This document shows positions 4,401 through 21,381 of a stretch of DNA of 23,415 nucleotides, one piece after another. The notes under the pieces are model-generated. The model was not told the origin of the DNA. It searched no databases and was given only the letters and a program-made list of their open reading frames with translations. Both the position numbers and the translations under genes were made by a program. Position 1 is the stretch's first letter, and every line of letters starts with the position of its first letter. Source of the DNA: a virus; IMG/VR virus record IMGVR_UViG_3300047548_000050, positions 1 to 23,415 of that record. One strand, written 5' to 3'.

Positions 4401-4774
4401 CTGTCAAATGTAATCTTGCGATCACCCCAATACATATCATTAAGGTCAAAAGAAAATTGACCGTTGGGGCTAATGTGGGAAATGACCAAGACGTAGTACA
4501 TGGTCTTGGCATCTGTGCTTAATGCTGCGTCAACAAAAGCACCGCCAAGATAAGCATCACCATAGACAACGGGAATGCTGTTTGTAGAAGACGGAGGAAC
4601 CTGCTGGCGAACACCATTGTCAACGGCCTGGTCTGCGCTCATATCAGGCGCAAATGCGCGAGACATGATGTTTGAAACAGCAAAGTTAATGGCAAACGCT
4701 GCGGCGGTGTGATACCAGGCAAAAGCACTGACAGATATTTCTGCCAGAGCCGCAACAATCATTGACCCGACCAT
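1454..4774 (-). CDS. Tail tip / host specificity protein, lambda gpJ-like
   Basis: A 1106-residue protein, close to lambda gpJ (1132 aa), which forms the central tail tip contacting the receptor. The N-terminus has two alanine-rich hydrophobic stretches (about residues 4-45), then an SIPVVYGDAYLGGAFVDAA segment typical of the ring domain. Residues about 390-490 contain the hub-like part: Q-YLATRILEQAREDL, GDVVTVTNSSYGW, and ELNEYNAQVYDDKDIT. The C-terminal 300 residues hold three diverged copies of a fibre module (about 802-868, 979-1055, 1056-1106), each with a core like V-x-x-N/D-G-x-x-L followed by an aromatic/acidic pair. It starts two bases after the acetyltransferase stop. The C-terminal modules probably present or carry the receptor-binding proteins encoded next. 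Confidence 0.85.
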   Translation of the reverse strand: MVGSMIVAALAEISVSAFAWYHTAAAFAINFAVSNIMSRAFAPDMSADQAVDNGVRQQVPPSSTNSIPVVYGDAYLGGAFVDAALSTDAKTMYYVLVISHISPNGQFSFDLNDMYWGDRKITFDSTDQTKVVSLTDGAGNVDSKVSGNIYIALYTSTQDGVITSANGATLPSAFMGGADLPAELRWAPTNRQMPGLAFAIVKMNYNREAETTNMQSLTYHVHHYLNGAGCAKPGDVWYDYMTNEKYGAAMPFDLVDTTSVAALNSYSDEPIAYQENGTGPYYQPRYRINGVVDTGQSCLNNINSIMIVCDSWNQYNAAKGQWSIVINKATTSAYAFDDSTIIGEIRVSAYDITSSVNQIEAEFPSAQNRDQSDFVYYETPAELLYPNEPVNKQSVQFSMTNDSVQAQYLATRILEQAREDLIVSFSTAYPGIQVDAGDVVTVTNSSYGWSNKPFRVMRVSEASLPDGSLGASFELNEYNAQVYDDKDITKYVPAPNTDLPDPSYFGTVPAPTVASSYPSAAVPSFNVQPYVGTASFVTYAEVWYSAFPSPTASQLLLGGTTALPSNGTPYTVGQTLPTVNLAIPAGDWYLFTRLVNPIANSQYSAASAVFKWRPTTFQYTERWIAVAYADSADGTVGFSLNPRNKTYYGLLNNATANGSPNPADYTWYAGSFGTSNYLLIANRQNRKFSFAIGNAGFSNLGGAFVPTETSVYDTSLWGALEDGQNYIDLDKRTGQLTKAGTTAVSSADGLLSVSNNTQGSMVVSLQKFLNFGAGVYSKTFSTATLTVDVFGRVVGFTQPDNFYYTETVFSATSGQTTFAVNHVVGNILVFRDGILADTSEYTETTTNFTFSNACASGEIVVVINMRAVSTDQYYENINGLIASSTSNSITYVDPLYQNVVAGDLLCFAAVQPQPTDSPTTYTVQSVNVSTKTITFTTSISGAVNGYGVFRKRAAGSTYTPFSRYTVDVSSANTVTPSNFTIRNGFEMIYVNGVQLNEIDYDLSGNTLGGFPGTVTGKMTFIMFTENNFGVPASNVVNTVSYSINGALSYVYPNNPLAMEVYANGALLAKGSGYDYTANSGGYNLTQAFNNNFTLLNQQTFARIGNA

Positions 4775-4776
4775 TT

Positions 4777-5223
4777 TTATTCCTTCACAAAACTAGCGCC
4801 GACAGCCTTGTATCCGCGCTTGATGTAATTTATCAGTGGTCCTTTGGCAGAAACCGATGTATAGGCACAATGAATTGAACCTTCTTTCAGCATCTTGCTT
4901 GCGATCTTGTCGTATTCAATCCAGAGTTTTCCGCCGACTGTCGTGTTGCGATGTTCTGGCTCAACCCACCACAAAAGCTCGTGAAGCTCTACAACCCCAG
5001 GGCACCAAATGTTGTTCTGTTTTATGGCGATCAATGCCCCAGCCATGTGGTCATCAATCAAAATAAATCCTCGACCTTGGATAATGGAAAATAACAACTC
5101 TTCAACATACTTTGGCATGTGAAAATGCGTCTTCCCAAGTGTGTCTACTGGATACTCAAATGAGTATGCTTCAACAATCTCCAAAAGCCTTGGAATGTCG
5201 TATCTTGTCGCAAGTCGAATCAT
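4777..5223 (-). CDS. GNAT-family acetyltransferase-like protein within the tail operon
   Basis: A 148-residue protein, the usual size for a single GNAT domain. The N-terminus IRLATRYDIPRLLEIVEAY matches the first strand and helix of the fold. Motif A is ELLWWVEPEHRNTTVGGKLW at about residues 82-101. In the acetyl-CoA loop the usual R-x-x-G-x-G has Thr in place of the first glycine, so cofactor binding may be altered. The C-terminal NYIKRGYKAVGASFVKE matches the closing GF/GY-x-x-x-x strand. It overlaps the upstream minor tail gene by four bases (ATGA), so it is made with the tail. Lambda-like phages usually have an NlpC/P60 peptidase and gpI at this place, and neither is seen. Substrate is unknown. 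Confidence 0.8.
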   Translation of the reverse strand: MIRLATRYDIPRLLEIVEAYSFEYPVDTLGKTHFHMPKYVEELLFSIIQGRGFILIDDHMAGALIAIKQNNIWCPGVVELHELLWWVEPEHRNTTVGGKLWIEYDKIASKMLKEGSIHCAYTSVSAKGPLINYIKRGYKAVGASFVKE

Positions 5224-5855
5224 AGTCCGAATCGTTTTTGTGATGGTGCTTGTGTTACGGCTTGGCTACCAGTTGTAGGTTCGCCACCAAAATCAAAGTA
5301 CGAGCCAGCAATTGCTGGAACCCGGTTCATGCTGTTGTCGCCAGGATAGAAAACCTGCCAAATCTTTGGAGTGGTTCTGACGCCACCAACACGGTTCTCA
5401 AGAATGGTTCTGAAAGACGCGCAGGAAATTCCAACAGTTGCCACACGAGTCCTGGCCTGCTCGTTCCAATCTTCCGTGATGGAATAGTTCGAAACAATGC
5501 CTTGGTAACGTTTGAAGAACTGCTGGGTTGGCGTCTGGATGATCTGGTTGTCGGCATCCAGAAAACCGCGCCATACCTCAATGCGAGAACCCTTGATGTC
5601 CGAACTCAAGATGATGGATACGTTTGTACCGTCAACGCCCGTCAAGGAAATGTTCAAATCAGAACTATTTGCCTTAATGTCTCGTTTGACTTCAGAAAGC
5701 TGGAGAAGACTGCCAAGGTTTGTGAATGTCATGTCATCCACAGAGATGGGAGCAGCGGCATTGCAGAACGTATAGACGTTCGATGGCATTGTGAGCCTAA
5801 TGAATTCGGCATGGCGGATAGACGAACTATCCAATGCCGTCATTGTTGTACTCAT
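5220..5855 (-). CDS. Minor tail protein, lambda gpL-like
   Basis: A 211-residue protein. It begins with a short helix followed by IRHAEFIRLTMPSNVYTFCNAAAPISV, then beta-strand-rich segments (DLNISLTGVDGTNVSIILSSDIKG, IEVWRGFLD) typical of tail tip proteins joining the distal tail ring to the central tip protein. The C-terminal part contains a W-x-x-x-x-PGD-x-S-M-x-R-V phrase common in gpL-type proteins. It lies after the gpM-like gene and before the acetyltransferase and gpJ-like gene, with 4-base overlaps on both sides. Assignment rests on position and sequence style; the cysteines that bind an iron-sulfur cluster in lambda gpL are not obvious. Confidence 0.65.
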   Translation of the reverse strand: MSTTMTALDSSSIRHAEFIRLTMPSNVYTFCNAAAPISVDDMTFTNLGSLLQLSEVKRDIKANSSDLNISLTGVDGTNVSIILSSDIKGSRIEVWRGFLDADNQIIQTPTQQFFKRYQGIVSNYSITEDWNEQARTRVATVGISCASFRTILENRVGGVRTTPKIWQVFYPGDNSMNRVPAIAGSYFDFGGEPTTGSQAVTQAPSQKRFGL

Positions 5856-6505
5856 TCTGTAATGTCCTCTCTAAACACAAACGCTTCATCCCAGTTGACA
5901 AAAGCGCCGCCAGGGGCTGGTGTGAGTGTATATGTTGGGCATCGTTCTGCCAAGACAATAAACTCGCATGTGTTGCCAACGCCAGCCAAAGTTCCAGTTG
6001 GCGGCGTGCCAATCACGGGACGATGCAAGCTGACGCTAACTGTCGAGTTCGTCCCGCGCAAAACGTCTTCCTTGACTTTGTATGTGTAGTTGCCGAGTTG
6101 CAAGAAATCGCCAGCTTTAAACACATATTTTGTCGAAGCCACGGATGGAAGATTCCCGATTGACACGACTTGAGAATTTGGCGCAGGAACAGAAGCAAGA
6201 GTCAAAGCATTGACTTGAGCCGTTGTCAAATCACCCTGGTAGTCAGTGAACCAAGCAAGATTTGCGCTGTTGAACGTGATCGTTTCTGGCAACTGACGGT
6301 CAAGGTTGTCGATGGTCTGAATGATGTCCCTAGATGTCGAATATGGCAGATAGTTGTGCGGAACAATAGTGAACACCCACGGCACCGAAGTCAGGTACTG
6401 AGCCACGCGAACTTGTCCAGAACGGCTTACCTGTTGCCCAACCGTCCTGCGGGTGTTTACAGTCATTGACTGCTGGTTCTCAAAGATCGTCTGGAACGAC
6501 ATCAT
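5852..6505 (-). CDS. Minor tail protein (distal tail, directly after tape measure)
   Basis: A 217-residue, beta-rich protein without membrane segments. It starts MMSFQTIFENQQSMTVN. In the middle, VASTKYVFKAGDFLQLGNYTYKVKEDVLRGTNSTVSVSLHRPV has the look of the small beta-sandwich domains that form the distal tail ring. Its start overlaps the tape measure stop by four bases and its end overlaps the next gene by four bases. The position equals that of lambda gpM or the distal tail protein Dit, and a structural role at the tail end is likely. The exact family is not recognised. Confidence 0.6.
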   Translation of the reverse strand: MMSFQTIFENQQSMTVNTRRTVGQQVSRSGQVRVAQYLTSVPWVFTIVPHNYLPYSTSRDIIQTIDNLDRQLPETITFNSANLAWFTDYQGDLTTAQVNALTLASVPAPNSQVVSIGNLPSVASTKYVFKAGDFLQLGNYTYKVKEDVLRGTNSTVSVSLHRPVIGTPPTGTLAGVGNTCEFIVLAERCPTYTLTPAPGGAFVNWDEAFVFREDITE

Positions 6506-8964
6506 GTTCTCCCGAAATTCGTGGACAGGTTCTTGGATGCGTATTGGTTGGCCGACCAGATAGCCTGGTTGCTTTCCAGCAGGCGCTGCTCAAACGACTT
6601 AACATCAATTGCGTTGATGTAGTTGTTGGTCACTTGAGTTACGCCACCAGAGTTTGCCAGCATGTTGTTGGGCACAATCGTACCCGAGCCAGTCGGGACG
6701 AAAAGCTCTGGCCCACGCTCTCCAACAATGTATGGCGAACCGCCAGCAACTGGGCCTCCGTTAGCCCTGAATGAAGCATCTTGAGCCGCCAGCATTGATG
6801 TTTGCTGGGAACCAATGTTGGTTCCATAAGACATTGCGGTAGAGATATTGCCGAACACAGAGCCAAGCAAGCCACGAATCAACGTCATCGCTTGCAGACG
6901 CATGTTCATAATCAGCATGTCTTGAATCACACTGCGCGTGAAATCCTTGATGCTGAATTTGCCAGTGCGGACAAATCTCTCGATTGACGCAGACATATTT
7001 GACCAAACGGCGTCATACATGCCTTGCATACGCTGCAAAGAATCAGCAAGTTCAATGTTGGCAAGTTTTGCCTGCATTGTTTGCTCATAAATCTGTTTTG
7101 CCTTTTCCTGGTCTTCAACAGACATATTCTTGAATTCCTGGCTACGAGCCAGCTTTTCAAATTCCTTTTGAGCATCAATCTTTGCCTGGGTAAGCTGAAT
7201 CTCTTTTTGCGTTGCCCCAATCAAAGAGAACCGTGCTTCAAGCTGCTCTTTGGAGAACAACTGCTCTTGCCTGCGAGTCTCGGCATCACCAAAAATCTTT
7301 GTGCGTTCACGCTCAAGACGTTCACCAACGTTTGCAATAGATTCAAACCAACGCTGGTCAGCTTCCCATTGTTGTTTCTTGCGATACTCAAATCGCTTTT
7401 TCTCTGCCTCGGCCTCTGCCTCTTGAACCTTTGCAACACGCTTTCGAGCAAATTCCGCAGCGTATTGACCAAATGTGTCTTCGTTGCGTTGCTTCTCTTC
7501 AATCTTGGCTTCTGCAATTTTCTTTTGCAGTTCAACTTCAATGCGCTGCTCTTCGCTGGCAATGGCTTCTGCCGATTTATAGAACGCATCAAGCTCGGCC
7601 TTTTCAGCCTCACGACGAGCACTGATTTGACCTTGAATGCCACCCGCTTTATTCCACCTGGAAATTCCAGCTTCTTCTTCCTGCTTTTTCTTTGCTTTTT
7701 CAGCAGCAGTCTCGGATTCAGAAACGACCTTTTCAACAAGCTGACGGAATTCGTCTTGCTGCTTTGCAAGATCGGCCTCCAAAAGCTGAGTGTTCATGCC
7801 AAGTTTTCTGCGCTTGGCAATACCATCCATTGTTTCAACAATCTTGGAATTCACGCGCTCCAAGGCTTGAAGTGTTTGCTCAGGACGGCCAAGACCAAGC
7901 ATGGCATCCCACGCCTCGCTGGCAACCTTTTTGATGGCGCTCCAAGACTGCTCAAGGTATCCAAGTGTCCTGCGATTTTCCTGAAGGCTTTTGTCCAAGG
8001 CCTCTGCAACAATCTTGGTAGATTCTTGTGTCCTACCTTGACGCTCAAGGGCTTCAATCTGCTTGTACTGAGCAGCAGTCAAAAAGTGATATTGCTCATT
8101 AAGCCGCTTGGCAGAAGCCGCAGAGCCATCAAAAGAAGGGATCAGCTTTTGAGCCGCTTCTTCTGCGCTCAAACCAGAAACCTTGGCAAAGCTACCAATT
8201 GCCTTGGCAACAGAACCCATCGTGGCTTCTGTGAAACGACCAGAGGCAGTCAATGCCTGCATGATGTCTTTTGCAGAACCGATGCTAATGCTTACATCCT
8301 GGCTCAAAGCGCGGGACATCGAATAGAACTTGTCCGTAGTAATACCGGCAAAATTGCCAGTCAACGTCAAAGTATCTTTCAGTTTGTCAATCTCATCACG
8401 GCCTTGATATGCGGCATAAGCCATTGCGCCAAAAGCCGCAGTGATGCCTCCAACGGCAATACGGAAAGGCGTAAAGATGGAAGCAACAGCTTTGAAGGCG
8501 TTGCCAATGCCACCCATCGTGTCTTTCAACTGACCACCTTGTTGCAAGAATGCAATCATGGCGTTCTGACCGCTGGCGATCTGCGTTACAAAGTCAGTCA
8601 CTTGGTATCCGACTTGCAGTTTTTGCTGCTCAGTCATCAATCCATTGACTTTCTTCATCGACTCAACGCGCTCGTCATACGCTTTGGCAATTCGCCTTGC
8701 CGTGTCGATGGCGTTTTGTTCTGCGCCTTGATATTTGCCAGCCTTGATTTCACGTTCAAGCTGTTGAACTTTTGTCAATGTTTTGCCGTAGTCTTCCGTG
8801 GCATAAACAAGCTGCTGCATGTCCTTTGCAAGCGCATCAGTCGCACGCTTGCCTTGCTTGGACAGGCTATCAAAATTCTTCTGAGCCTCTGTAATGCCTT
8901 GGACAAGTTCTCCGCTATCAACCGCGAGAACAATACCAAGTCGCGCAAGATTTTGTGAAGCCAT
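6502..8964 (-). CDS. Tail tape measure protein, lambda gpH-like
   Basis: The 820-residue protein sets tail length and is ejected ahead of the DNA. Residues 1-115 are helical (start MASQNLARLG). Residues about 120-146 carry YQVTDFVTQIASGQNAMIAF, a hallmark of lambda-type tape measures, followed by a hydrophobic segment at about 163-186. Residues about 370-640 are charged, Glu/Lys/Arg-rich coiled coil. Near the C-terminus (about 735-766) there is a glycine-rich GGPVAGGSPYIVGERGPELF segment common in this family. The usual rule of about 0.15 nm per residue gives a tail near 120 nm (estimate). The start overlaps the gp10-like stop by one base, with GGAG nine bases upstream. Confidence 0.92.
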   Translation of the reverse strand: MASQNLARLGIVLAVDSGELVQGITEAQKNFDSLSKQGKRATDALAKDMQQLVYATEDYGKTLTKVQQLEREIKAGKYQGAEQNAIDTARRIAKAYDERVESMKKVNGLMTEQQKLQVGYQVTDFVTQIASGQNAMIAFLQQGGQLKDTMGGIGNAFKAVASIFTPFRIAVGGITAAFGAMAYAAYQGRDEIDKLKDTLTLTGNFAGITTDKFYSMSRALSQDVSISIGSAKDIMQALTASGRFTEATMGSVAKAIGSFAKVSGLSAEEAAQKLIPSFDGSAASAKRLNEQYHFLTAAQYKQIEALERQGRTQESTKIVAEALDKSLQENRRTLGYLEQSWSAIKKVASEAWDAMLGLGRPEQTLQALERVNSKIVETMDGIAKRRKLGMNTQLLEADLAKQQDEFRQLVEKVVSESETAAEKAKKKQEEEAGISRWNKAGGIQGQISARREAEKAELDAFYKSAEAIASEEQRIEVELQKKIAEAKIEEKQRNEDTFGQYAAEFARKRVAKVQEAEAEAEKKRFEYRKKQQWEADQRWFESIANVGERLERERTKIFGDAETRRQEQLFSKEQLEARFSLIGATQKEIQLTQAKIDAQKEFEKLARSQEFKNMSVEDQEKAKQIYEQTMQAKLANIELADSLQRMQGMYDAVWSNMSASIERFVRTGKFSIKDFTRSVIQDMLIMNMRLQAMTLIRGLLGSVFGNISTAMSYGTNIGSQQTSMLAAQDASFRANGGPVAGGSPYIVGERGPELFVPTGSGTIVPNNMLANSGGVTQVTNNYINAIDVKSFEQRLLESNQAIWSANQYASKNLSTNFGRT

Positions 8965-10471: not shown

Positions 10472-11047
10472 TTAAATCCATTTTGGTGAAGTTGTAATGT
10501 GCCTATATTTTTTTTGCCTCAAAGCAAAATCTCTTGTTCCACTTGCCCAATGAGACAATGTTTTGTATGAAATTCCTGTAACTCTTTGAGCTTCTAATGA
10601 AGACCCATAAATTACTCCATCTACACAAATTTTTTTGCTTGTGGGATGTTTTGATCCAAATTTTCCAAGATGGAATCTTGTCTTTTTTTTTGATTGATTG
10701 GCTTTAAAAGAAACAACTCTTTTTTGGATGTGTAAGGCATCTTGTTTTTGTCCAGAAACACCTTTAAGCATACCATCAGAATTGCTTCTGTTGTAAAACA
10801 ACGGGTTGTTTCTTGCATCTAAAATTTGAAGAATTGCTTTTTCAACAAACAATACTTCATCTCTTGATCCAGAAAACAAGATTGAACGAGTCCATCCATT
10901 GGGATTTGACTCAATCAATGGCTTGACGTATTTGGATGAACAAATATAACCATCATTAACATGACAGTTTTTCTTTGTTCTACTGCCCAAATACATCAAG
11001 CCAGTTGAATGCTCAACCCACAAATAAACAAATGGTTCAGAAGCCAT
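10472..11047 (-). CDS. GIY-YIG homing endonuclease (free-standing)
   Basis: The frame extends upstream to 11074 inside the tail tube gene, but the ATG at 11047, eight bases after that gene's stop, gives a protein beginning right at the domain (191 aa). The GIY-YIG signatures are VYLWVEHSTG (about 7-16) and MYLGSRTKK (18-26), followed by DGYICSSKY, a conserved Glu at about 69 (EVLFVEKAIL) that should bind the metal, and an Asn near 86. The C-terminal half is a NUMOD-type DNA-binding region (FGSKHPTSKK, then VDGVIYGSSLEAQRVTG as a helix-turn-helix). Such genes spread by cutting copies of their locus that lack them. It is more A/T-rich than its neighbours, consistent with recent insertion. Confidence 0.85.
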   Translation of the reverse strand: MASEPFVYLWVEHSTGLMYLGSRTKKNCHVNDGYICSSKYVKPLIESNPNGWTRSILFSGSRDEVLFVEKAILQILDARNNPLFYNRSNSDGMLKGVSGQKQDALHIQKRVVSFKANQSKKKTRFHLGKFGSKHPTSKKICVDGVIYGSSLEAQRVTGISYKTLSHWASGTRDFALRQKKYRHITTSPKWI

Positions 11048-11055
11048 TAGGCTCG

Positions 11056-11577
11056 TCACACATTGTTGCTCCAACCGTAGCTGTTGCCACCAGTCGGGTG
11101 GATGGTGAAGTTGAACTTACCTTCAGCCGAGGGAGACATATCCCACGACAGGCCACCAACGCGACCGTTGAAGGCGTAAGCAACAGTGTCGGTGCCATCA
11201 TAAACGGCCACGACGTAGGTGCGGATGATCGTGCCGTTGTAGCCGTCATCGCGGATCAGAAGCTGGGCTTCGTCAGCGGGGTTCCAAGCAGCCGTCACGG
11301 TCAGGCTGGTCACTTGGTTCTGGGTGGTGATCTTGGCACCAGTGCGAGCACCAGCCACCGAGTAAGCGGCAAAAGCGTCGTCAGCACCGAAAGCGGGGAT
11401 CGCCTCGACGGGAACTTGAATACCAGTAGTACCCAGGCCACCAGCGGATGTGCCAATGATGGCTTCAATGCTGGCCCACGAGGACAGTTGGGTATCGGTC
11501 AAGGGAGTAGGCGAAGCGCCATCTTGACACCAGAGGGTTGCAACGTAACCCGGCAAGACTTTGTTAATGAGAGCCAT
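11056..11577 (-). CDS. Major tail tube protein
   Basis: A 173-residue protein starting MALINKVLPGYVATLWCQDG. It is rich in Gly, Ala, Thr and Val, with alternating beta-strands (TSLTVTAAWNPADEAQLLIRDD, TIIRTYVVAVYDG) and a final KFNFTIHPTGGNSYGW stretch. This matches tail tube proteins of siphophages, which stack as hexamer rings to form the DNA channel. It lies after the tail terminator gene and before the chaperones, the standard place. A 42-base gap and a clear AAGGAA binding site ahead of the ATG suggest strong independent translation, as expected for a protein needed in many copies. Confidence 0.85.
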   Translation of the reverse strand: MALINKVLPGYVATLWCQDGASPTPLTDTQLSSWASIEAIIGTSAGGLGTTGIQVPVEAIPAFGADDAFAAYSVAGARTGAKITTQNQVTSLTVTAAWNPADEAQLLIRDDGYNGTIIRTYVVAVYDGTDTVAYAFNGRVGGLSWDMSPSAEGKFNFTIHPTGGNSYGWSNNV

Positions 11578-12384: not shown

Positions 12385-13053
12385 TTACATCACCAAAGGT
12401 TTGTAAGGACGCAGCAATGTGGTCACGCCAAACGGAATGTCCTTGAGCTTGGTTTCTGTTGCGTTCGAACGATTGTTGTAAAGATGCGTTAGCAACAAAA
12501 GAGCAGCCTGCTTGATGACAGGGTAAGCAGCCAAGGGGTTCGCAGCAACCGTGTATTCCACGACGATTGGAGCCGTCATAGCCGTGTTGATGTCAGTCGG
12601 CAGGCCAGCAACCACGATTTTGTTCCCGGAGGGGTCGTAGTAATACTGGTTGGACGGAATCGTAGTCAACACAGAAGGTGTTGCATCGTTCCAATACTTC
12701 ACAAAAGAGATTGTGACGGGATGTGGATCAATGTTCGAACTTTGGCTCACCTCGGGCAAATCAAGGCTCGCAGGCGCTGCTGCAAGGCTTTCACCGCCGT
12801 AATAAACCCTGTACGAAGTGGCAAAGATGGACATACCAAGGTAGTCCTCAATTGCCATTCGTGTTGCGAGTTCAAGAGACAGGACATAAGCGTCCTGGCT
12901 CGTGTCATCAAACAGGTTTAGATGTTCGGTGATTTCATTGGCAGTGAGCCAGTTAGTCGAGACATCACGATTCGTCTGTTCAACCTTGACGTAATTGAAC
13001 GGATTGCGAGTCTGTGCCCCAAACGGGTAGCCGACAACGTTATCAACTGCCAT
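12385..13053 (-). CDS. Head-tail connector (adaptor), HK97 gp6-like
   Basis: A 222-residue protein. Residues about 35-80 form the helical part (LTANEITEHLNLFDDTSQDAY, then ELATRMAIEDYLGMSI) seen in gp6/gp15-type adaptors that sit under the portal ring. The middle is beta-rich (QYYYDPSGNKIVVAG). The C-terminal helix AYPVIKQAALLLLTHLYNNR followed by PFGVTTLLRPY is the strongest family feature. It lies 10 bases after the second capsid gene and before the head closure gene, the usual place. It is longer than HK97 gp6, mainly because of the beta insertion. Confidence 0.82.
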   Translation of the reverse strand: MAVDNVVGYPFGAQTRNPFNYVKVEQTNRDVSTNWLTANEITEHLNLFDDTSQDAYVLSLELATRMAIEDYLGMSIFATSYRVYYGGESLAAAPASLDLPEVSQSSNIDPHPVTISFVKYWNDATPSVLTTIPSNQYYYDPSGNKIVVAGLPTDINTAMTAPIVVEYTVAANPLAAYPVIKQAALLLLTHLYNNRSNATETKLKDIPFGVTTLLRPYKPLVM

Positions 13054-13063
13054 ATTTCACCTC

Positions 13064-14080
13064 TTAGGCGCTCATGCGAACACCAGCGAACGGATCACGC
13101 ACGGTAGACACCACACGCTTTTCTGCGTAGATAGTCATAAAACCGGGCGTGGTCTGTTCAAACATCTGGATGGACATTTCTTCATTGTCGCCAATGGTCA
13201 AGAAACGAGGCCAGTTTGCCAGATAAATTGGGAAGCCGGTAGACAGATACGGGTTCGGAATCACAGGGAAGCCAAACATGCGGCCAACAGCAGCGCCATC
13301 TTCGTCACCGATTTCTAGGAACAGCGGCAGACCTTGAGAGTCTTTCAGGCTACGCAGGCTGTCAATCATAGACGGACGGATGTGCCAAGCATTGCCAGGA
13401 AGCGACCAGTATTGGCTGGGGAAGGCATTCACCAGATCAACAATGTTGTTGTAGGTCACGCCACCGACAGTCTGAGCCACAGTAGCCAGTGTATGAATGC
13501 CAGCGGTGATTGCAGTGCCAGAAGTGCCATACGCAGCCGTCGAGCCAGAAGCATACATATCCAGACCACGCAGGCCAGATGTTGCACCAGTGGCAGTAGT
13601 TGTCGAACCAGCTTGGTCCGAGTTCACGGCCATCGAAGCGCCTTCGACTTGTGCGAATTCCAGCATCAGGTCTTCAATCAACGTGCTCTCAAGAGCATTG
13701 ACATCCGACAGAACAGCAGTACGGATGGGCAGTTGGGCTGTCACAGCACGGACAGGCAATTGCCAAATGGAAGTATTTGTGCCAGGAGTTCCGGTGTTGT
13801 TTTGAACCGGATAGCCCCAAGGGTTGGTTTGATAAGTTGCGTTACCAGTCTTGGCAACGAATTGCATATCAGAACCATCAACAGTAACCATGCGCGAACC
13901 CATGCGGAACGGGTTTGCATAGCGCAGGGCAGCGAATGCGTCATCAAAAATCACACGGCCACCGACACCCGAACCGGAACCAGTCAACGAGGACGCTTCC
14001 TTGAGGTCGATTGTGACTTTCTCGCCTTTGTCGTAGGCTTCTTTGATTCCGCTAAGAATTTTTTCGGTGATAGTGGTCAT
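13064..14080 (-). CDS. Second major capsid protein, HK97 fold, lacking the delta domain
   Basis: The 338-residue protein is a clear paralogue of the capsid protein upstream. Shared blocks, in order, include EAS-LT followed by GGR at its residues about 28-42, F-ALR-ANP, VKTGNA-like KTGNA, NTSIWQ, Q-PIRTA-L-D, LEFAQ-E, GLRGLD-Y, and a C-terminal SVRDPFAGVR-like VRDPFAGVR. Only about 27 residues precede the shared part, against about 107 in the other copy, so the scaffold-like delta domain is missing and it may not need protease maturation. A loop in the middle is also shorter. It probably takes part in the shell (for example at pentons or as a minor coat), but this is inferred. The start has AGGAA upstream and follows a terminator. 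Confidence 0.88.
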   Translation of the reverse strand: MTTITEKILSGIKEAYDKGEKVTIDLKEASSLTGSGSGVGGRVIFDDAFAALRYANPFRMGSRMVTVDGSDMQFVAKTGNATYQTNPWGYPVQNNTGTPGTNTSIWQLPVRAVTAQLPIRTAVLSDVNALESTLIEDLMLEFAQVEGASMAVNSDQAGSTTTATGATSGLRGLDMYASGSTAAYGTSGTAITAGIHTLATVAQTVGGVTYNNIVDLVNAFPSQYWSLPGNAWHIRPSMIDSLRSLKDSQGLPLFLEIGDEDGAAVGRMFGFPVIPNPYLSTGFPIYLANWPRFLTIGDNEEMSIQMFEQTTPGFMTIYAEKRVVSTVRDPFAGVRMSA

Positions 14081-14103
14081 GGCATTTCCTAAAAAAGCTG
14101 GTT

Positions 14104-14128
14104 AAAAAGCGGGGGCCGAAGCCCCCAC
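14104..14128 (-). terminator. Intrinsic terminator between the two capsid genes
   Basis: On the minus strand GTGGGGGC pairs with GCCCCCGC (8 bp, one G-U) around a UUCG loop and is followed at once by five T (plus-strand A at 14104-14108). It begins five bases after the first capsid gene's stop, and the second capsid gene starts 24 bases further on. As an internal terminator in the late operon it should allow partial read-through, lowering transcription of the second capsid gene and everything downstream. Confidence 0.88.
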
Positions 14129-14133
14129 TTTCA

Positions 14134-15486
14134 TCAGGTCGCTGTGCCAGTCGAGCGATAGCGAACGCCAGCGAACGGATCGCGCACAGACGTTGCCAGA
14201 CGCTTTTCACCGTAGAAGGTGATATAGCCGGGGAGCGTCTGGTCGTAGCGACGAACCAGCATGTTCAGGCGGTCGATGATCGTGTGGAAACGCGACCAGT
14301 CAGCGAAGTACGCAGGGTACAGGCTGGTAGTACCGGCAGAGCCAGTGGTGGCTTGTGCGGGAGCGTCAACGTAGCTGTTCACAACCACATCGAAGCCCAG
14401 CAGTTGGCCGACGATACCGTCAACCGACAGACCTTCGTTACGGTTGAAGATAGGAGCGCCATTGTCGTCAGTCAGACCACGCACTTGCGACAAGAACACG
14501 TTGTTCATCATGATCTTGGCGTTCGGGGTCCAGTACTGCTGCGGCAGAGCGTAGATGAAGTTAACGATGTCCTTGTAGGTCACGTTACCAGCACCCACGG
14601 TGTTGCCGTTGGTGGTCAACTGGTCATAGGTGTTGAGGCTATGCAGGCCAGTGTTCGAACCAGTGCCAGAGCTACCGAAAGCAGCGGTGGAGTGAGTGCC
14701 ACCAGTGTAGGTAGCGTTAGCGCCACCGTACTGGTCCAGACCACGCAGGCCATCAGCACCGCCAGTAGCCACGGTGGTGCCGTCGCCAGACTGGTCGTTG
14801 TTGGAAATCATGGACTGAGCTTCAGCTTGGGCGAATTCGGCCAGCATGTCGTCAACCACGTTGGCTTCCAGGCCGTCGATGTCGTCCAGGGCAGCAGTAC
14901 GGATCGGGAACTGCACGTTGATGTCTTTGAGGACGATCTGCCAAATCGAGGTGTTCTCGGTTGTGGGCGTGCCGTTGTTCTGGATGCCGTAGCCCCACTG
15001 AGCGCCAGCGTTGCCAGTCTTCACACGGAACTGATAGCTGGAGCCATCGGTAGCAACAGTGCGAGACACGCCACGCAGCGGGTTAGCCAGACGCAGAGCG
15101 CGGAACACGGGGTCGTAAGCGGTACGACCACCTTTGCCGTCACCGCCAGCGGTCAGGGCAGAGGCTTCAGCCAGGTAGGCTTCCATTTGCGACTCATCTG
15201 CAAAGATTTGCAGTTGCTTCTCAAAAGCAGACTTGGTGCCACTGGCGATGTCGCGCAGTTGCTCACGCACATGACGGTTAACGTCTTGGCGAACGGTCTT
15301 GGCCTTCTCTTTGTGGATGGCGGGAGCTTGCACGGAAGCAACTTTGGCTTCCAGGGCAGCAACCATTTCGCTCATTTCAGCTTTTACAGCTTCGATAGCA
15401 GCGGGGATTTTTGCTTCGACAGCAGCGACAGCTTCAACTTGTTTAGCTTCGATAGCGTCCAGCTTTTCGATGATTTCTTTCGACAT
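14134..15486 (-). CDS. Major capsid protein, HK97 fold, with N-terminal delta domain
   Basis: A 450-residue protein. Residues 1-57 are an Ala/Glu/Lys-rich coiled coil and about 58-110 a further helical part; together they form the delta (scaffold) domain that the prohead protease removes. Cleavage is expected around residues 105-120, in the ALTAGGDGKGG linker (inferred). The HK97-fold part follows (ANPLRGVSRTVATDGSS, NTSIWQIVLKDINVQFPIRTA, GLRGLDQYGG, ending VRDPFAGVRYRS). HK97 gp5 is 385 aa with a ~100-residue delta domain, so this copy has a normal-size delta domain and a longer body. It follows the protease by two bases and ends at a strong terminator. It is the likely dominant shell protein. 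Confidence 0.92.
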   Translation of the reverse strand: MSKEIIEKLDAIEAKQVEAVAAVEAKIPAAIEAVKAEMSEMVAALEAKVASVQAPAIHKEKAKTVRQDVNRHVREQLRDIASGTKSAFEKQLQIFADESQMEAYLAEASALTAGGDGKGGRTAYDPVFRALRLANPLRGVSRTVATDGSSYQFRVKTGNAGAQWGYGIQNNGTPTTENTSIWQIVLKDINVQFPIRTAALDDIDGLEANVVDDMLAEFAQAEAQSMISNNDQSGDGTTVATGGADGLRGLDQYGGANATYTGGTHSTAAFGSSGTGSNTGLHSLNTYDQLTTNGNTVGAGNVTYKDIVNFIYALPQQYWTPNAKIMMNNVFLSQVRGLTDDNGAPIFNRNEGLSVDGIVGQLLGFDVVVNSYVDAPAQATTGSAGTTSLYPAYFADWSRFHTIIDRLNMLVRRYDQTLPGYITFYGEKRLATSVRDPFAGVRYRSTGTAT

Positions 15487-15488
15487 GA

Positions 15489-16289
15489 TTAACCTTTCAG
15501 GCGTTTGTCAAGGAGTTTAAGAAGTTCGCGCTGCTCAAGAGCCGCGAGAATTTCCGCTTCGGTTGCCTCCGCATCAGAATCACTCTGACTCGGCGCAGCT
15601 TCAATAGGCTCTTTAACAGCATCACGCTGTTCAATCACCTGCTTGAATACAGATGCGGCGGCAACCGACATCTGCTTGGACAGACCTGCATCCCGCAGGG
15701 CTTCTTCCAATACTTTCAAGTCAGCAGAACCATCCTCACGGAAGTATTCCAGCTTTTTGACTTGAGCTTTGGGGTTGTTGGGGTGCATCACAACACTAGT
15801 CTCACGCAAACCACCTTTGGTGATTTGGAAATAGCCTTCTTCCCAATAATCTTGAGAACCAGCAGGAAACGGAGTGCCGTCTTCTTTGACCCACTGATAT
15901 TCATCAGCGTATGCGCCAACAGAAACACCGCCAAACATATTCGGCGATTCGCTCATTACCTGATACAGATCGGAGCCAGTTGTGGTGTTCAAGAACAGGC
16001 GACCTTTGGCAGACATGCCATCGTCGTCCATCTCAAACTCAGTCCACTCACCAACAGGGATTTGATCCGAGTTGTGATTGACATACATGGGAAGAGGACG
16101 ACCAGACTTGGCAAACTCGGTGGCCCATTCCATAAAGCCTTCAGGCTTGTAGAAGAATCGACGGCCATCAGCGCCTTCACGAGCGCCCCAAGTTGTGATG
16201 CGAGCTTCAATCTTTCCTGTCGGTTCGCCGCTTGCGGCCTTTTCGGACAGGTTGAGCTTTGCTTCGCAGATCAGATTTAGTTGCTTCAT
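15489..16289 (-). CDS. Prohead maturation protease, HK97 family (S78/U35)
   Basis: The 266-residue serine protease cuts the delta domain from the capsid protein and then itself during head maturation. The catalytic His is at about 72 in YVNHNSDQIPVGEW and the Ser at about 123 in GGVSVGAY. The conserved GGLRETSVVMHPNNPKA segment (about 159-175) closes the domain. The last ~75 residues are a charged helical tail (rich in Glu, Ala and Lys) that could contact the scaffold; this tail makes it longer than the ~225-residue HK97 gp4. The ATG at 16289 has AGGGG six bases upstream. It lies directly before the capsid gene, the standard order. Confidence 0.92.
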   Translation of the reverse strand: MKQLNLICEAKLNLSEKAASGEPTGKIEARITTWGAREGADGRRFFYKPEGFMEWATEFAKSGRPLPMYVNHNSDQIPVGEWTEFEMDDDGMSAKGRLFLNTTTGSDLYQVMSESPNMFGGVSVGAYADEYQWVKEDGTPFPAGSQDYWEEGYFQITKGGLRETSVVMHPNNPKAQVKKLEYFREDGSADLKVLEEALRDAGLSKQMSVAAASVFKQVIEQRDAVKEPIEAAPSQSDSDAEATEAEILAALEQRELLKLLDKRLKG

Positions 16290-16428: not shown

Positions 16429-17826
16429 TCAAGTCTTCCCGATGTTCATTTTTCGAGTCTGATTTCCGCCACCACCACCTGTGTCTTGTTTACTGGTGCC
16501 AGGAATGGCATCGGTAGTTTTGGCGTCTTTTACCAATTCATCGCCACCCTCGATATTTGCCATACCCATATATTCACGGGCTTCGTTCGGGGTAATGATG
16601 CCATTGGTCACGCCAGATGTCACAAAGTTCATTTGGTCCAGCGGAGCACCTTTCAGGAAGTCCTTGGTGTCGAACTGGATGCAAAGCGACGGATAGCCAT
16701 TGAAAAGGTGGTCTTTCAGCTTTTCCTGGACATTCACAATAATCGGATACATGGCCGATTTGTAAAATTCATCCATTGCGGTCTGGGTGTTGTTAAATTT
16801 GCCATCATGAATGCCAAGCATAGAAGGTGGCACACCAAATAGACCGCAGATTCGGCGCATAGTTTGCAGCTTGAGCGCAGCAGCATCTGCATCCTGAAGG
16901 GTCAACATTTGCAAAGGCGTGTATTTCATGCCCTGGTCAAGCAACATGCCTTGGCCCGGTTTGGACGGGTCAGACTGCTTGCTACCGACCATATTGCTCC
17001 AGGCTTCTTTCAGTCGGGCAGCGATTTCTTTGTATTTGCCATCAGGAATCACGGCTTCCGTCATAAACATGCCAGAGGGCTTGGCACCGTTTTGCATGAC
17101 ATAGTTGGCATACAGGTCAATGTCCTGGTCCAAACCGCAAAGTTCGGCCATCAAGATGCCTTTGTTGAAGCCAGCAGAACCTTGCCATGCCATTTCCTTG
17201 CAATGCATGACTTGATGAGCCTGCAAAGGCTCGTCTTTGCTAAATCCATACGAAGGAGTGGACAAGCGGTAGCTGGGATAACGAGTGGGCGTAATCGTGA
17301 CTGCGATTAGAGTCGAGTCAAGGATATACATCTCCAGCGGAGTCTGCGTTGAGTTCTTTTGATCGGCTCTCCACCAAAGCGTGAACGCTTCGCCAGACAA
17401 CTCGTACCACATCAACCACTGATACCAGAACTCGTATTTGCTCTGGAAATTGTTTGGCTTATTCAGCAGCTTGGCAACTTGCTTGGCCTTGGCTTTGTCA
17501 CGAGCGCCAACGTCTTTATTTTTGATGGCATCAACATATTCGCCCTCTTCTGTCTCGTACATGACACGAATAGGCAACTGAGCCAAAGCACGAGCTTTGA
17601 TTGCAACGCACGACATAATCGTGCTATTGCGGGACAACATGGACATATCCACCGGACGACCAGCACTTGTAGTGCTGCCGGTGGTGACATACAGGATTTG
17701 GGTATTGACAGTCGGGTTTTTGTTGTCGCCCTGGTAAACAATGTTGTTACCAAGCGCCGTTTGACCGAACAAAGAGTTCGATTCATTGGCCTGCTTTTTA
17801 CCCCTGAAAATGTCCAAAATGCCCAT
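16429..17826 (-). CDS. Portal protein, HK97 family
   Basis: The 465-residue protein forms the dodecameric ring for DNA entry and exit. It begins MGILDIFRGKK. Family features in order: V-AIKARALAQLPIRVM (about 74-89), WYQWLMWYELSGEAF (134-148), HCKEMAWQGSAGFNKGI (208-224), the highly conserved RRICGLFGVPPSMLGI (324-339), and NGIITPNEAREYMGM (408-422). The C-terminus has a GGGGG tail, probably flexible and inside the head. It is close to HK97 gp3 (424 aa). It starts 24 bases after the TerL stop with AGGAG upstream. Confidence 0.93.
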   Translation of the reverse strand: MGILDIFRGKKQANESNSLFGQTALGNNIVYQGDNKNPTVNTQILYVTTGSTTSAGRPVDMSMLSRNSTIMSCVAIKARALAQLPIRVMYETEEGEYVDAIKNKDVGARDKAKAKQVAKLLNKPNNFQSKYEFWYQWLMWYELSGEAFTLWWRADQKNSTQTPLEMYILDSTLIAVTITPTRYPSYRLSTPSYGFSKDEPLQAHQVMHCKEMAWQGSAGFNKGILMAELCGLDQDIDLYANYVMQNGAKPSGMFMTEAVIPDGKYKEIAARLKEAWSNMVGSKQSDPSKPGQGMLLDQGMKYTPLQMLTLQDADAAALKLQTMRRICGLFGVPPSMLGIHDGKFNNTQTAMDEFYKSAMYPIIVNVQEKLKDHLFNGYPSLCIQFDTKDFLKGAPLDQMNFVTSGVTNGIITPNEAREYMGMANIEGGDELVKDAKTTDAIPGTSKQDTGGGGGNQTRKMNIGKT

Positions 17827-17850: not shown

Positions 17851-19530
17851 TTACCACTCAATCTGCCTGAAACCAAATGAATCCGACACAAACATGTTGT
17901 CTAAGTGGCCATGAACGGCCATGATTAGAGCAATAATTCCGTCAACCTTTGCGGAAGGATCAGCTTCGTTTTTACGAACTTTCACGTTTCCGTTTACGTC
18001 CGTGTAAACCTCACAGTTACCCAATTGCCAACCAAGGAATGGGTTTCCGTCATGCTTGATAGCCTTTTTTAGGATCAATTGCTCGGTGGCTTTTGATGGA
18101 TTCGATAGGACTGCCATACCTTGACCAACTTTTACTACTGGCAAGCCCTCTGCATACAAATTTGACACCAAGGCAGCAGCGTTGTACGGGTCATAGTTCA
18201 CAGCTTTGACAGCATACCTCTCACATTCTTGTTTGATATAGGCTTCAATTTCATTCAGGTCGGTTACGTTGCCAGGGGTCAGGCGCAAAATGCCAGACAT
18301 CACGGCCTGGCTGTAAATGCTCTTGTAATGGTTGGGAATCAACTCAATGGATTCTTCGGGCAGGAAGAATTGGAACTTCGAATAGAAGTTTTCCTCGCCA
18401 TACCGATGCAAAGTGCAAACAGCATTCAAGTCGCGTGTATGAGCCAAGTCGAAAGCCACAAAGGTGGACTCAGGCTCTTCCTCGGGCTTGGGCGCAACGG
18501 ACTCATCCCAGTATCTGCGGTCAACCCAAGCAGAGTTGGCGCTGACGTAAATGTTTAGCTGCTTGCAGAGGAATTCGTTGAGGCTTGCTGGCTTTGCTGC
18601 CGCTTCTTCAGCCATGTGACGAATATGCTCAGTTGTGACTGAAACTCCGAGCATGGGATTCGCCTTGCTCCAGACACTAGCATCTGCCCAAGCATCACCG
18701 GGATCAACGCTATACAGAAGGCCAAACCAGCGAAAATTATCAGCAGCAGCCCCACGGAGAACAGCACGGAAGTGCGAAAGGTCTTCATAGAATTTTGTCT
18801 CCTTTGTGAAGCTGGCCGTCGTCAGGTACATGCGCAGCGGGTTCTTTCGCGCACCCATACCCGAGTGCAAAACTTCAATTGACTGGCGCTCTGTAATCTG
18901 CGCCGCCTCGTCAATCATCGCACAAGACGGGTTCTTACCATCGCCCGTTTTCCTGTTCTCACGAGACAGCGAACGGTATGTGGATGTCGAATCACCAGCC
19001 TTCTTGAGTTCGCCCCGGTAGACGATGAATTTTGCGGCCAGTTCCGCAACCATGCCTTCAACAATCGCCTTTGACGAATCAAAGCAAATGGATGCCTGTT
19101 CGCGGTTTGTTGCAAGAGTGAAAACTTCCGCGCCTGCATCACCGAACTGGAGTTCGTACAGAGAAATGATGGACGCAATGGTAGTTTTGCCCGACTTGCG
19201 AGGAACGAAAAGAATGACATCCGTCGTCCACCGAACGCTATGATCCCGTTTGTCGCGGAAACCATAGACACCAGCCAGGAATAGAACCTGGAACGGCTCA
19301 AGCTGGATAGGCTTCCCGGCATCCGGGCCTTTGACATGCTTGCAGAACTTGACGAACTTGAGAACATGCTCGACCTTTGATGCGACAAACTCGTAGGGCG
19401 CATCCTTGCGCTCTACCATGTCCAGGAATCGTTGGCAGGCTAGCTTGATGTCCTCGCAAGCCTGAATGTCCCCCCGAGCTACGCCAGCAGCGTATTGGAA
19501 GGCGCTCTCAAGCGTTGGCGAATAACTCAT
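17851..19530 (-). CDS. terL: Large terminase subunit (ATPase and nuclease)
   Basis: The 559-residue motor pumps DNA into the prohead and cuts it. ATPase: Walker A VPRKSGKTT at 109-117, Walker B CAMIDEA at 203-209 (catalytic Glu 208), and coupling motif LTTAS at 236-240. Nuclease: Asp 361 in VAFDLAHTRD, Asp 447 in NYDPYN and Asp 530 in AKVDGIIAL, the expected acidic triad of the RNase H-like fold. Length and motif spelling fit the HK97-like Terminase_1 group, which mostly uses cos packaging. The gene overlaps the small subunit by 23 bases, which suggests coupled translation. Confidence 0.95.
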   Translation of the reverse strand: MSYSPTLESAFQYAAGVARGDIQACEDIKLACQRFLDMVERKDAPYEFVASKVEHVLKFVKFCKHVKGPDAGKPIQLEPFQVLFLAGVYGFRDKRDHSVRWTTDVILFVPRKSGKTTIASIISLYELQFGDAGAEVFTLATNREQASICFDSSKAIVEGMVAELAAKFIVYRGELKKAGDSTSTYRSLSRENRKTGDGKNPSCAMIDEAAQITERQSIEVLHSGMGARKNPLRMYLTTASFTKETKFYEDLSHFRAVLRGAAADNFRWFGLLYSVDPGDAWADASVWSKANPMLGVSVTTEHIRHMAEEAAAKPASLNEFLCKQLNIYVSANSAWVDRRYWDESVAPKPEEEPESTFVAFDLAHTRDLNAVCTLHRYGEENFYSKFQFFLPEESIELIPNHYKSIYSQAVMSGILRLTPGNVTDLNEIEAYIKQECERYAVKAVNYDPYNAAALVSNLYAEGLPVVKVGQGMAVLSNPSKATEQLILKKAIKHDGNPFLGWQLGNCEVYTDVNGNVKVRKNEADPSAKVDGIIALIMAVHGHLDNMFVSDSFGFRQIEW

Positions 19531-19891: not shown

Positions 19892-20392
19892 TTAGATGGT
19901 GCATCCTACATGCAGTTTTCTTTTCGCGTCAACATAGGCTTTGTGAGCTTCTTCGACGGTATCAAAATACCCAATATGAATTTGCTTTCCTTTTGTTGTA
20001 ATCACGGCTCTCCAGCGCCTATGATTTTTCTCTCTTGACACACCTAAGATGCCGCAAGACCTATTATGGCTTGGAGCTTCTTTTTGGTTTTCATTATTTG
20101 TTGTCGCACTAACATCACGCAAATTTTCAATGCTGTTATCCGTGACAATTCCGTTGATATGGTCAATGTAGTGTTTTGGGAATTCTCCATAAACATAAAG
20201 CCATGCAAGTCGATGCGCTCTATAAACACGGCCATCAACGCCAATCACAACGTACCCTTTCACCGATGGTGAACCAGCAACATCACCAGCATGGACTCTT
20301 TTGCTGTGCGCAAACTTCCAAGTGAACAATCCCGTGTCAGGAGAATAGTCCAGCAATTCTTTCAATCGCGTCTGCGTAAGCAATGGCTTCAT
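19892..20392 (-). CDS. HNH homing endonuclease with AP2 DNA-binding domain
   Basis: The frame extends to 20428, but the ATG at 20392 is chosen because AGAGG lies five to six bases upstream; this gives 166 residues starting MKPLLTQTRLKEL. The HNH part runs about 58-100: AHRLAWLYVYGEFP, catalytic YIDHINGIVTDNSIENLRDVS (Asp 77, His 78, Asn 90). The AP2 part is about 113-160: GVSREKNHRRWRAVITTKGK, then IHIGYFDTVEEAHKAYVDAK. This pairing is typical of free-standing phage homing endonucleases. It sits directly before terS, so it either entered the start of the packaging operon or helps cleavage near the packaging site. A candidate promoter lies just upstream. Confidence 0.88.
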   Translation of the reverse strand: MKPLLTQTRLKELLDYSPDTGLFTWKFAHSKRVHAGDVAGSPSVKGYVVIGVDGRVYRAHRLAWLYVYGEFPKHYIDHINGIVTDNSIENLRDVSATTNNENQKEAPSHNRSCGILGVSREKNHRRWRAVITTKGKQIHIGYFDTVEEAHKAYVDAKRKLHVGCTI

Positions 20393-20409
20393 ATTTACCT
20401 CTCGTGCCA

Positions 20410-20418
20410 AATATACCA
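20410..20418 (-). promoter_or_regulatory. Candidate extended -10 promoter before the endonuclease-terS operon
   Basis: On the minus strand TGG TATATT fits an extended -10 element (TG-N-TATAAT type). About 16 bases upstream there is only a poor -35 (TGTAAA). Transcription would begin near 20403, leaving a leader of about eleven bases that contains the AGAGG binding site for the ATG at 20392. Confidence 0.35.
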
Positions 20419-20428
20419 CGCTTGCCAC

Positions 20429-20650: not shown

Positions 20651-21082
20651 TCAGAGCGAGCGAAGCACAGCCGAAGGCCAGTCGCTGGCCTGGTAGTCAG
20701 TGAAAGAGCCGTCTTTGTAGTGGCGAAAGATGCCTCGCTGCTCCAGGCTGCTCTTCCTGCTGTGACAGGGCGCGCACAAGCTAGACCAAAGATTCAATCT
20801 GAAGGCTCGCTCTCCGAAGTCTTTCCACCTGAAGCAGTGGTCAACCACCTCGGCAGCCGTGAGCCGTCCTTCTGACTGGCAGCACTGGCACAGTGGCTGT
20901 GCTGTGAGTTGAGCCGTCCTTAACTGCCTCCAGACAGCAGACCGATACAGACTGTCCTGTTCTCGTCTGTCTGTCTTTGGTGTGGCTCTGGCTGGTGTGT
21001 GCTGCTCACAGAATCGAGAGCCAGCCACAGAGGGCGCTTTGCACTGGTACTGGTCACACTGAGAGCGAGGGATGGAGGGCAT
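20651..21082 (-). CDS. HNH nuclease of the packaging module
   Basis: With the ATG at 21082 the protein has 143 residues. A first Cys pair and His (CDQYQC, then FCEQH) may form a zinc site at about 9-28. The HNH motif follows: AEVVDHCFRW (Asp 81, His 82), LNLWSSLCAPCHSRK (Asn 97, Cys 103, Cys 106, His 107), with CQCC (65-68) completing the second zinc site. HK97 gp74-type HNH proteins lie next to terS and are needed with terminase for cos cutting, and this one fits that type. The frame is open further to a TTG at 21130, but that part runs through DnaA boxes. No start has a strong ribosome binding site, so the exact start is uncertain. Confidence 0.8.
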   Translation of the reverse strand: MPSIPRSQCDQYQCKAPSVAGSRFCEQHTPARATPKTDRREQDSLYRSAVWRQLRTAQLTAQPLCQCCQSEGRLTAAEVVDHCFRWKDFGERAFRLNLWSSLCAPCHSRKSSLEQRGIFRHYKDGSFTDYQASDWPSAVLRSL

Positions 21083-21381
21083 GAGCAGATTATCCACATA
21101 TTGCCCACAGGGGAAATCAACTATCCACAAAATCTAGACTTATCCACAGGCTGCACCACATCAAAGCATAAATGCACTTTTATCGTGCATTTTTGCACCA
21201 CTTTTGTGCGTGCTGTTTATAACTCCAAAAAATGTGAATTCTCGTGTTGAATTGTGGATAACTTTGTGCCTTGTGAATGAAAGTGCCTTTTGATAACCTG
21301 TGAATAAGTGGTTATCCACATTTTTTTATCATGCTGGCACGATGTGTGCATGAGAAAAGCACCTCAACACAGGAGAAATCC
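21083..21381. other. Divergent intergenic region with a DnaA-box cluster; candidate replication origin
   Basis: This region separates the leftward late genes from the rightward small-gene operon. Exact TTATNCACA DnaA boxes lie at 21090-21098 (+), 21140-21148 (+), 21253-21261 (-), 21299-21307 (-, TTATTCACA) and 21312-21320 (+). A near match, CTATCCACA, is at 21121-21129 (+). With equal base frequencies about 0.007 such matches are expected in 230 bases on both strands. Between the box groups there is A/T-rich DNA with GTGCA/TGCAC inverted repeats (21185-21198). A weak promoter-like pair for the rightward genes is TTGCAC (21193-21198) with TATAAC (21218-21223), spaced 19 bases. DnaA-directed origin opening, or DnaA control of divergent transcription, is inferred. 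Confidence 0.7.

Follow-up and report, generated by a model that had tools for sequence, protein, structure and literature searches.

Why would a phage with a genome of about 39 kb encode two capsid proteins of the same fold side by side, one with a scaffold-like domain and the other without most of it, and what would the shorter protein do in the head? The locus that raises this question lies on a stretch of 23,415 nucleotides (positions 1–23,415 of the IMG/VR virus record IMGVR_UViG_3300047548_000050), hereafter referred to as the window. The long and short proteins are termed MCP1 and MCP2. The features of the window on which the analysis draws are the following.

14134–15486, minus strand: MCP1, full-length HK97-fold major capsid protein of 450 residues with an N-terminal delta (scaffold-like) domain (PF05065, 8e-27)
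13064–14080, minus strand: MCP2, short HK97-fold capsid paralogue of 338 residues, predicted minor shell subunit (PF05065, 2.5e-21)
15169–15486, minus strand: delta domain of MCP1, residues 1–106, mostly absent in MCP2 (MCP1/MCP2 alignment)
14000–14080, minus strand: N-terminal leader of MCP2, residues 1–27 (predicted helix 4–18; kept in 60 diverse orthologues)
14104–14132, minus strand: terminator-like GC-rich hairpin (12 pairs, UUCG loop) with a T-run, between MCP1 and MCP2 (folding)
15489–16289, minus strand: prohead protease (peptidase S78), directly upstream of MCP1 (PF04586, 2e-8; PHROG head maturation protease)
16429–17826, minus strand: portal protein (PF04860, 2.7e-61)
17851–19530, minus strand: terminase large subunit, TerL (PF20441/PF03354)
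12385–13053, minus strand: head–tail adaptor Ad1, directly downstream of MCP2 (PHROG 442 and 40)

Two capsid paralogues in one head operon

The head operon runs on the minus strand in the order TerS-like, TerL, portal, S78 protease, MCP1, MCP2, Ad1 connector and tail genes, and thus portal, protease and terminase share an operon with both PF05065 proteins. Both score far above the cut-off of the Phage_capsid family PF05065 (94.7 bits for MCP1 and 76.7 for MCP2; cut-off 24.2), both match major head proteins in PHROG, and the two are 43% identical to each other over 368 columns (BLASTP, E = 2e-79). A reading of the sequence alone had described two tandem HK97-fold paralogues here; the open reading frames, the three kinds of match and the two complete folds described below bear this out. 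That reading had also placed the start of the shared part after about 107 and 27 residues, in agreement with the alignment, where the common part begins at an EAS-LT motif (E107 in MCP1, E28 in MCP2) preceded by 106 and 27 residues. Its claim that the short copy lacks the scaffold domain stands for the long delta domain, of which a stretch of about 80 residues is missing from MCP2. It does not stand for the N terminus as a whole: MCP2 is not bare and retains a conserved leader of about 27 residues.

The pair is a fixed trait of a phage lineage

Relatives were collected from IMG/VR, where at least 574 were confirmed from one MCP2 profile and the best 80 were taken per scan. Among the matches listed, MCP1 lay intact and directly upstream of MCP2 in all 180 loci that were fetched via MCP2 and had enough sequence; nine further contigs, which start inside or just before MCP2, fall outside this count. 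To avoid circularity, loci were also fetched via MCP1, and MCP2 was directly downstream in 145/145 new loci with enough sequence (six others end at or just after MCP1 and are not included). Both genes were also present on 5/5 contigs from metagenome-assembled genomes (MAGs) found with MCP1, which are counted among the 180 loci as well. The loci of separate scans partly overlap, and the number of distinct protein pairs is 223. P19250A, the sole isolate record with the pair, carries both genes. The search for other phages with adjacent long and short capsid genes, which the sequence-only reading had suggested as a check, thus returned one isolate and more than 220 distinct metagenomic pairs. Rather than a product of decay or a one-off, the pair is fixed across a large lineage. 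The group consists of abundant, little-studied small freshwater tailed phages with genomes of about 39 kb.

Two minor observations concern individual contigs. On one (L051, positions 4490–5840; L132 is the same contig), an in-frame stop, perhaps a sequencing error, interrupts MCP1 at residue 151, and MCP2 is intact. Five GTDB MAGs (L155–L159) hold contigs of the group, and one of these MAGs is labelled Candidatus Nitrosotalea; this is probably binning contamination.

Elsewhere the arrangement appears to be rare. No second capsid open reading frame was found at 60 random proviral capsid loci from other genomes of one bacterial phylum, that of a MAG labelled Betaproteobacteria, which is in line with the earlier expectation that two-coat HK97-type siphophages are uncommon. 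Because a plain family search overlooked the second copy in the very genome that served as its positive, and was therefore too insensitive alone, the 60 regions were rescanned with a profile built from their central capsid open reading frames, which recovered both copies in 4/4 positive controls. On rescanning, 59 regions were single and one had an extra overlapping open reading frame in the wrong frame. The literature, of which our coverage is incomplete, yielded no other two-coat siphophages. Wider kinship with phage Venkman, once clustered with P19250A, was considered and rejected: its record has one capsid gene and a separate scaffold gene, and tblastn with both proteins gave no match in it.

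Origin and selection

In a tree that included five single-capsid outgroups, the MCP1 sequences were monophyletic (support 0.80), as were the MCP2 sequences (0.98), and the two clades were sisters (0.97). Such reciprocal monophyly implies one duplication before the whole known group, and the tree thus places a single ancient duplication on the stem of the group, as its founding event. The stem that joins the pair to the single-capsid outgroups is long (1.5 substitutions per site). MCP2 evolves the faster of the two, with a mean depth in the tree of 0.60 versus 0.32 for MCP1. Gene conversion that keeps the copies alike was examined and rejected, as the within-genome identity excess was 0.01–0.03 everywhere and no part of the alignment stood out.

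Both genes are under strong purifying selection, with a median dN/dS of 0.15 for MCP1 and 0.14 for MCP2 (908 pairs at moderate divergence); for MCP2, 93% of pairs fall below 0.3. The sequence-only reading had named a signature of decay in relatives as one of the results that would speak against it. None was seen: in loci with enough sequence no MCP2 is broken or frameshifted, and its dN/dS is that of a maintained gene.

Fold and domain structure

The AlphaFold2 monomer of MCP2 is a complete HK97 fold (pLDDT 73.5) that retains N-arm, E-loop, spine helix, A-domain and P-domain. That of MCP1 (pLDDT 67.1) shows the same fold after a long N-terminal helix; its leader is composed of this helix (predicted for residues 2–51) and shorter elements, all of low confidence. 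The best fold matches of MCP2 are the capsid of the Rhodobacter capsulatus gene transfer agent (RcGTA) and HK97 (best VIA-align Z 21 over residues 48–338; Foldseek E = 7.7e-17), and the top structural match of MCP1 is the RcGTA capsid 6tb9 (Foldseek E = 1.4e-17). RcGTA and HK97-type capsids are thus the closest solved folds for both proteins. In hmmsearch against the PDB at E ≤ 0.01, two capsid profiles (A4 and A5) found only RcGTA capsids (both profiles) and the EcCI2 head protein (A5). A decoration (cement) protein would be small, of non-HK97 fold and attached to the outer face of the shell; this role was rejected for MCP2 in view of its full HK97 fold.

The axis of a capsomer in HK97-fold shells is lined by the A-domain. 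Of the positions conserved in MCP1, MCP2 retains 25% within this domain versus 44% elsewhere (Fisher p = 0.02, with domain limits drawn by eye on the model), and three MCP1 loops from the loop/A-domain part (residues about 255–262, 291–300 and 377–388) are missing in MCP2. A change from hexamer to pentamer would be expected to leave such divergence at the capsomer axis. The signal is modest, and A-domains may vary more in any case. Fold searches and monomer models of moderate confidence do not separate pentamer from hexamer subunits.

In two divergent members of the group (L334, positions 2870–4102, and L337, positions 4976–6211), the E-loop of MCP2 contains about 70 extra residues. These match PHROG 21413 and the tail fibre family PHROG 38233, which suggests that they are exposed on the shell surface.

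A hairpin between the two genes

A GC-rich hairpin followed by a T-run was present in 188/198 distinct MCP1–MCP2 spacers, versus 1.8% of shuffled spacers. The mean folding z of the spacers was −3.8, and 123 distinct hairpin sequences were counted. The ten spacers that did not pass the strict test nevertheless contain, when read by eye, a GC-rich inverted repeat, with a T-run that is weaker. When the same test was applied to the 60 nt downstream of each gene, the hairpin was found after MCP1 in 93% of cases, versus 0–3% after TerL, portal, protease, MCP2, Ad1 and two further genes; it follows the probable tail tube gene in 18% of relatives. The spacer of the window folds at −21.9 kcal/mol. Its hairpin is visible by direct folding and missing from a generic terminator list, probably because part of the T-run is taken up in the stem.

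We infer that the hairpin is either an intrinsic terminator with read-through or an mRNA-stabilizing 3′ hairpin, which in both cases would keep MCP1 above everything downstream. As it precedes all later head and tail genes too, it is not specific to MCP2.

Some spacers are longer. In three loci (L011, L021 and L034; about 570 nt), an open frame of 190 residues resembling a GIY-YIG homing endonuclease, as judged by reading from sequence, is inserted exactly between the capsid genes, after the hairpin. In six others (L061, L063, L070, L071, L073 and L074; about 342 nt), a small extra open reading frame of about 100 residues lies between the hairpin and MCP2.

Codon bias as a proxy for amount

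The effective number of codons (Nc), computed over up to 223 loci, was 37.7 for MCP1 and 41.9 for MCP2, and MCP1 had the lower value in 201/223. Values in these loci were 41.2 for the probable tail tube gene, 46.7 for Ad1 and portal each, 47.4 for protease and 48.8 for TerL. In the window, MCP1 (Nc 36.3) has the strongest bias of the genes tested. The probable major tail tube gene of the window (11056–11577, minus strand) is second only to MCP1 (Nc 39.0); its product is without a PHROG match. The bias of MCP2 is thus intermediate: weaker than that of MCP1, close to that of the probable tail tube and stronger than that of the low-copy connector. Provided that a head contains tens to hundreds of MCP2 copies, this ranking agrees with expected copy numbers, but the bias of MCP2 may in part be inherited from the MCP1 parent. 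Hairpin and codon bias together suggest that MCP2 is probably made in smaller amounts than MCP1.

Proposed role of MCP2 in the head

We favour, with a probability of roughly 0.55, a division of labour in which MCP1 builds most of the shell and MCP2, the product of an old duplication, is a minor subunit, most likely the penton. Equipped with its own scaffold domain, MCP1 would nucleate and build the prohead lattice of hexamers. MCP2 would descend from a duplicated major capsid gene that lost most of its delta domain, and would be unable to scaffold a shell by itself. As the contacts of N-arm, E-loop and P-domain are kept, it should fit the same lattice, and with its A-domain reshaped it would most likely supply the pentamers of the eleven vertices without a portal. 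Read-through into MCP2 would be lowered by the terminator-like hairpin that follows MCP1; if the shell has T=7 geometry, this would suit an MCP1:MCP2 ratio close to 360:55. The S78 protease encoded upstream would then mature the head; it is expected to cleave MCP1 and possibly MCP2. The presence of MCP2 in virions, its vertex position and lower expression, the T=7 geometry and the cleavage of either leader are what we infer from these features. A minor-subunit or penton role had been put forward in the sequence-only reading, and it finds indirect support in the hairpin, the codon bias, the trimmed A-domain loops and the parallel with gp23/gp24 of T4.

A possible alternative, to which we give considerably less weight, is that MCP2 serves as a shell subunit beyond the vertices, mixed into hexamers variably or irregularly, or tuning shell size and stability. 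Two-component HK97-fold encapsulins of Streptomyces lydicus do co-assemble with variable composition and irregular tiling (PMC12407261), the N-arm and E-loop residues kept in MCP2 should suit any lattice position, and the copy number may exceed 55, given a mean codon bias about equal to that found for the probable tail tube. However, strict 1:1 presence and long evolution as separate clades suggest that the division of labour is fixed, the hairpin speaks for unequal amounts, and remodelling of the A-domain fits a changed capsomer symmetry.

It is improbable that MCP2 belongs to the head but not to the mature lattice, as an assembly factor, a protease-activating vertex plug, a ring at the head–tail junction or another low-copy part. 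Its gene does lie between those of the major capsid protein and Ad1, a frequent site of head accessory genes, and in T4 the protease has been suggested to be triggered when gp24 attaches to the vertices of the prohead (PMC9958956). Yet MCP2 keeps every part of a shell subunit, from N-arm and E-loop through the spine helix to the A and P domains, and TerL, portal, protease and Ad1 all have a weaker codon bias. We consider two kinds of particle (two head sizes, or a separate compartment) instead of one mixed shell to be very unlikely: although both proteins are complete HK97 folds, the window has one portal, one protease, one terminase and one connector set, and MCP2 is without the scaffold domain that, judging from HK97 biology, a prohead of its own would be expected to need. 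Redundancy or decay of MCP2, as a duplicate with no function of its own, is hardly credible, for although duplicated genes often decay and MCP2 is the faster-evolving copy, no locus with enough sequence lacks it or has it broken, the sole in-frame stop lies in MCP1 (L051/L132), and dN/dS is low.

Comparison with known systems

The closest parallel to the penton role that we favour is T4, where gp24 is a paralogue of gp23 with a propeptide of 10 residues versus 65 in gp23, and where some gp24-bypass mutations map to the A domain of gp23 (PMC9958956). As here, gp23 and gp24 are HK97-fold paralogues thought to derive from a duplication, with a much shorter second leader (PMC9958956; PMC5694885). 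gp24 is minor in copy number (PMC9958956; PMC5694885), as MCP2 may be too, to judge by hairpin and codon bias. The T4 pair also differs in its identity of about 20%, versus 43% here, and in that the pair here belongs to a genome of about 39 kb with an S78 protease. The T4 proteins in the PDB gave no match to the MCP2 profile. MCP2 is thus not detectably a relative of gp24 by profile, and would work like the T4 system without belonging to its sequence family. Fold and principle are already known.

Within the group, the Methylophilaceae phage P19250A (KX815270) has the same head operon as the window, with a hairpin between the genes and 57–59% identity. Its MCP1 (4600–5988) is annotated as 'gene transfer agent capsid protein' and its MCP2 (6066–7124) only as 'hypothetical protein', a label that can now be corrected.

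The Family 2B encapsulins of Streptomyces lydicus, which are also among the fold matches of MCP2, resemble the pair in having two HK97-fold shell paralogues, there co-assembling (PMC12407261), and differ in forming a host nanocompartment and not a phage head. A two-component encapsulin here (shell with cargo enzyme, without portal or terminase) was rejected because the pair lies among portal, terminase, protease and tail genes.

HK97-type shells differ from the arrangement proposed here in that their hexamers and pentamers are made of the same capsid protein (PMC13185644). According to a 2026 review, phages of about 40 kb such as HK97 and P22 make T=7 heads from one coat protein, a single coat uses genome space efficiently, and the large-genome phage T4 illustrates the use of distinct proteins for hexons and pentons (PMC13185644). 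If our reading is true, the freshwater group, with genomes the size of those of HK97 and P22, would run counter to this single-coat economy, and P19250A would provide a cultured member for testing what a dedicated vertex subunit buys. The odds seem to us about even that a siphophage lineage with genomes of about 39 kb has evolved, apart from T4, a penton or position-specific capsid protein by duplication minus the scaffold domain, with a ratio set by a junction-specific terminator and, in some members, a tail-fibre-related E-loop domain. The combination of small genome, scaffold on one paralogue, junction-specific hairpin and presence in a whole lineage was not found described in the literature covered. 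Where a capsid gene is used as a single-copy marker in metagenomes, phages of this group would be counted twice.

Other open reading frames in the window

Three further open reading frames lie on the minus strand of the window. That at 20651–21130 is HNH-like by reading only, as a second such frame, and that at 10472–11074, in the tail module, is a likely homing endonuclease (weak match to the I-TevI DNA-binding domain, below cut-off). The frame at 19892–20428, upstream of the small terminase gene, encodes a homing endonuclease of HNH/AP2 type.
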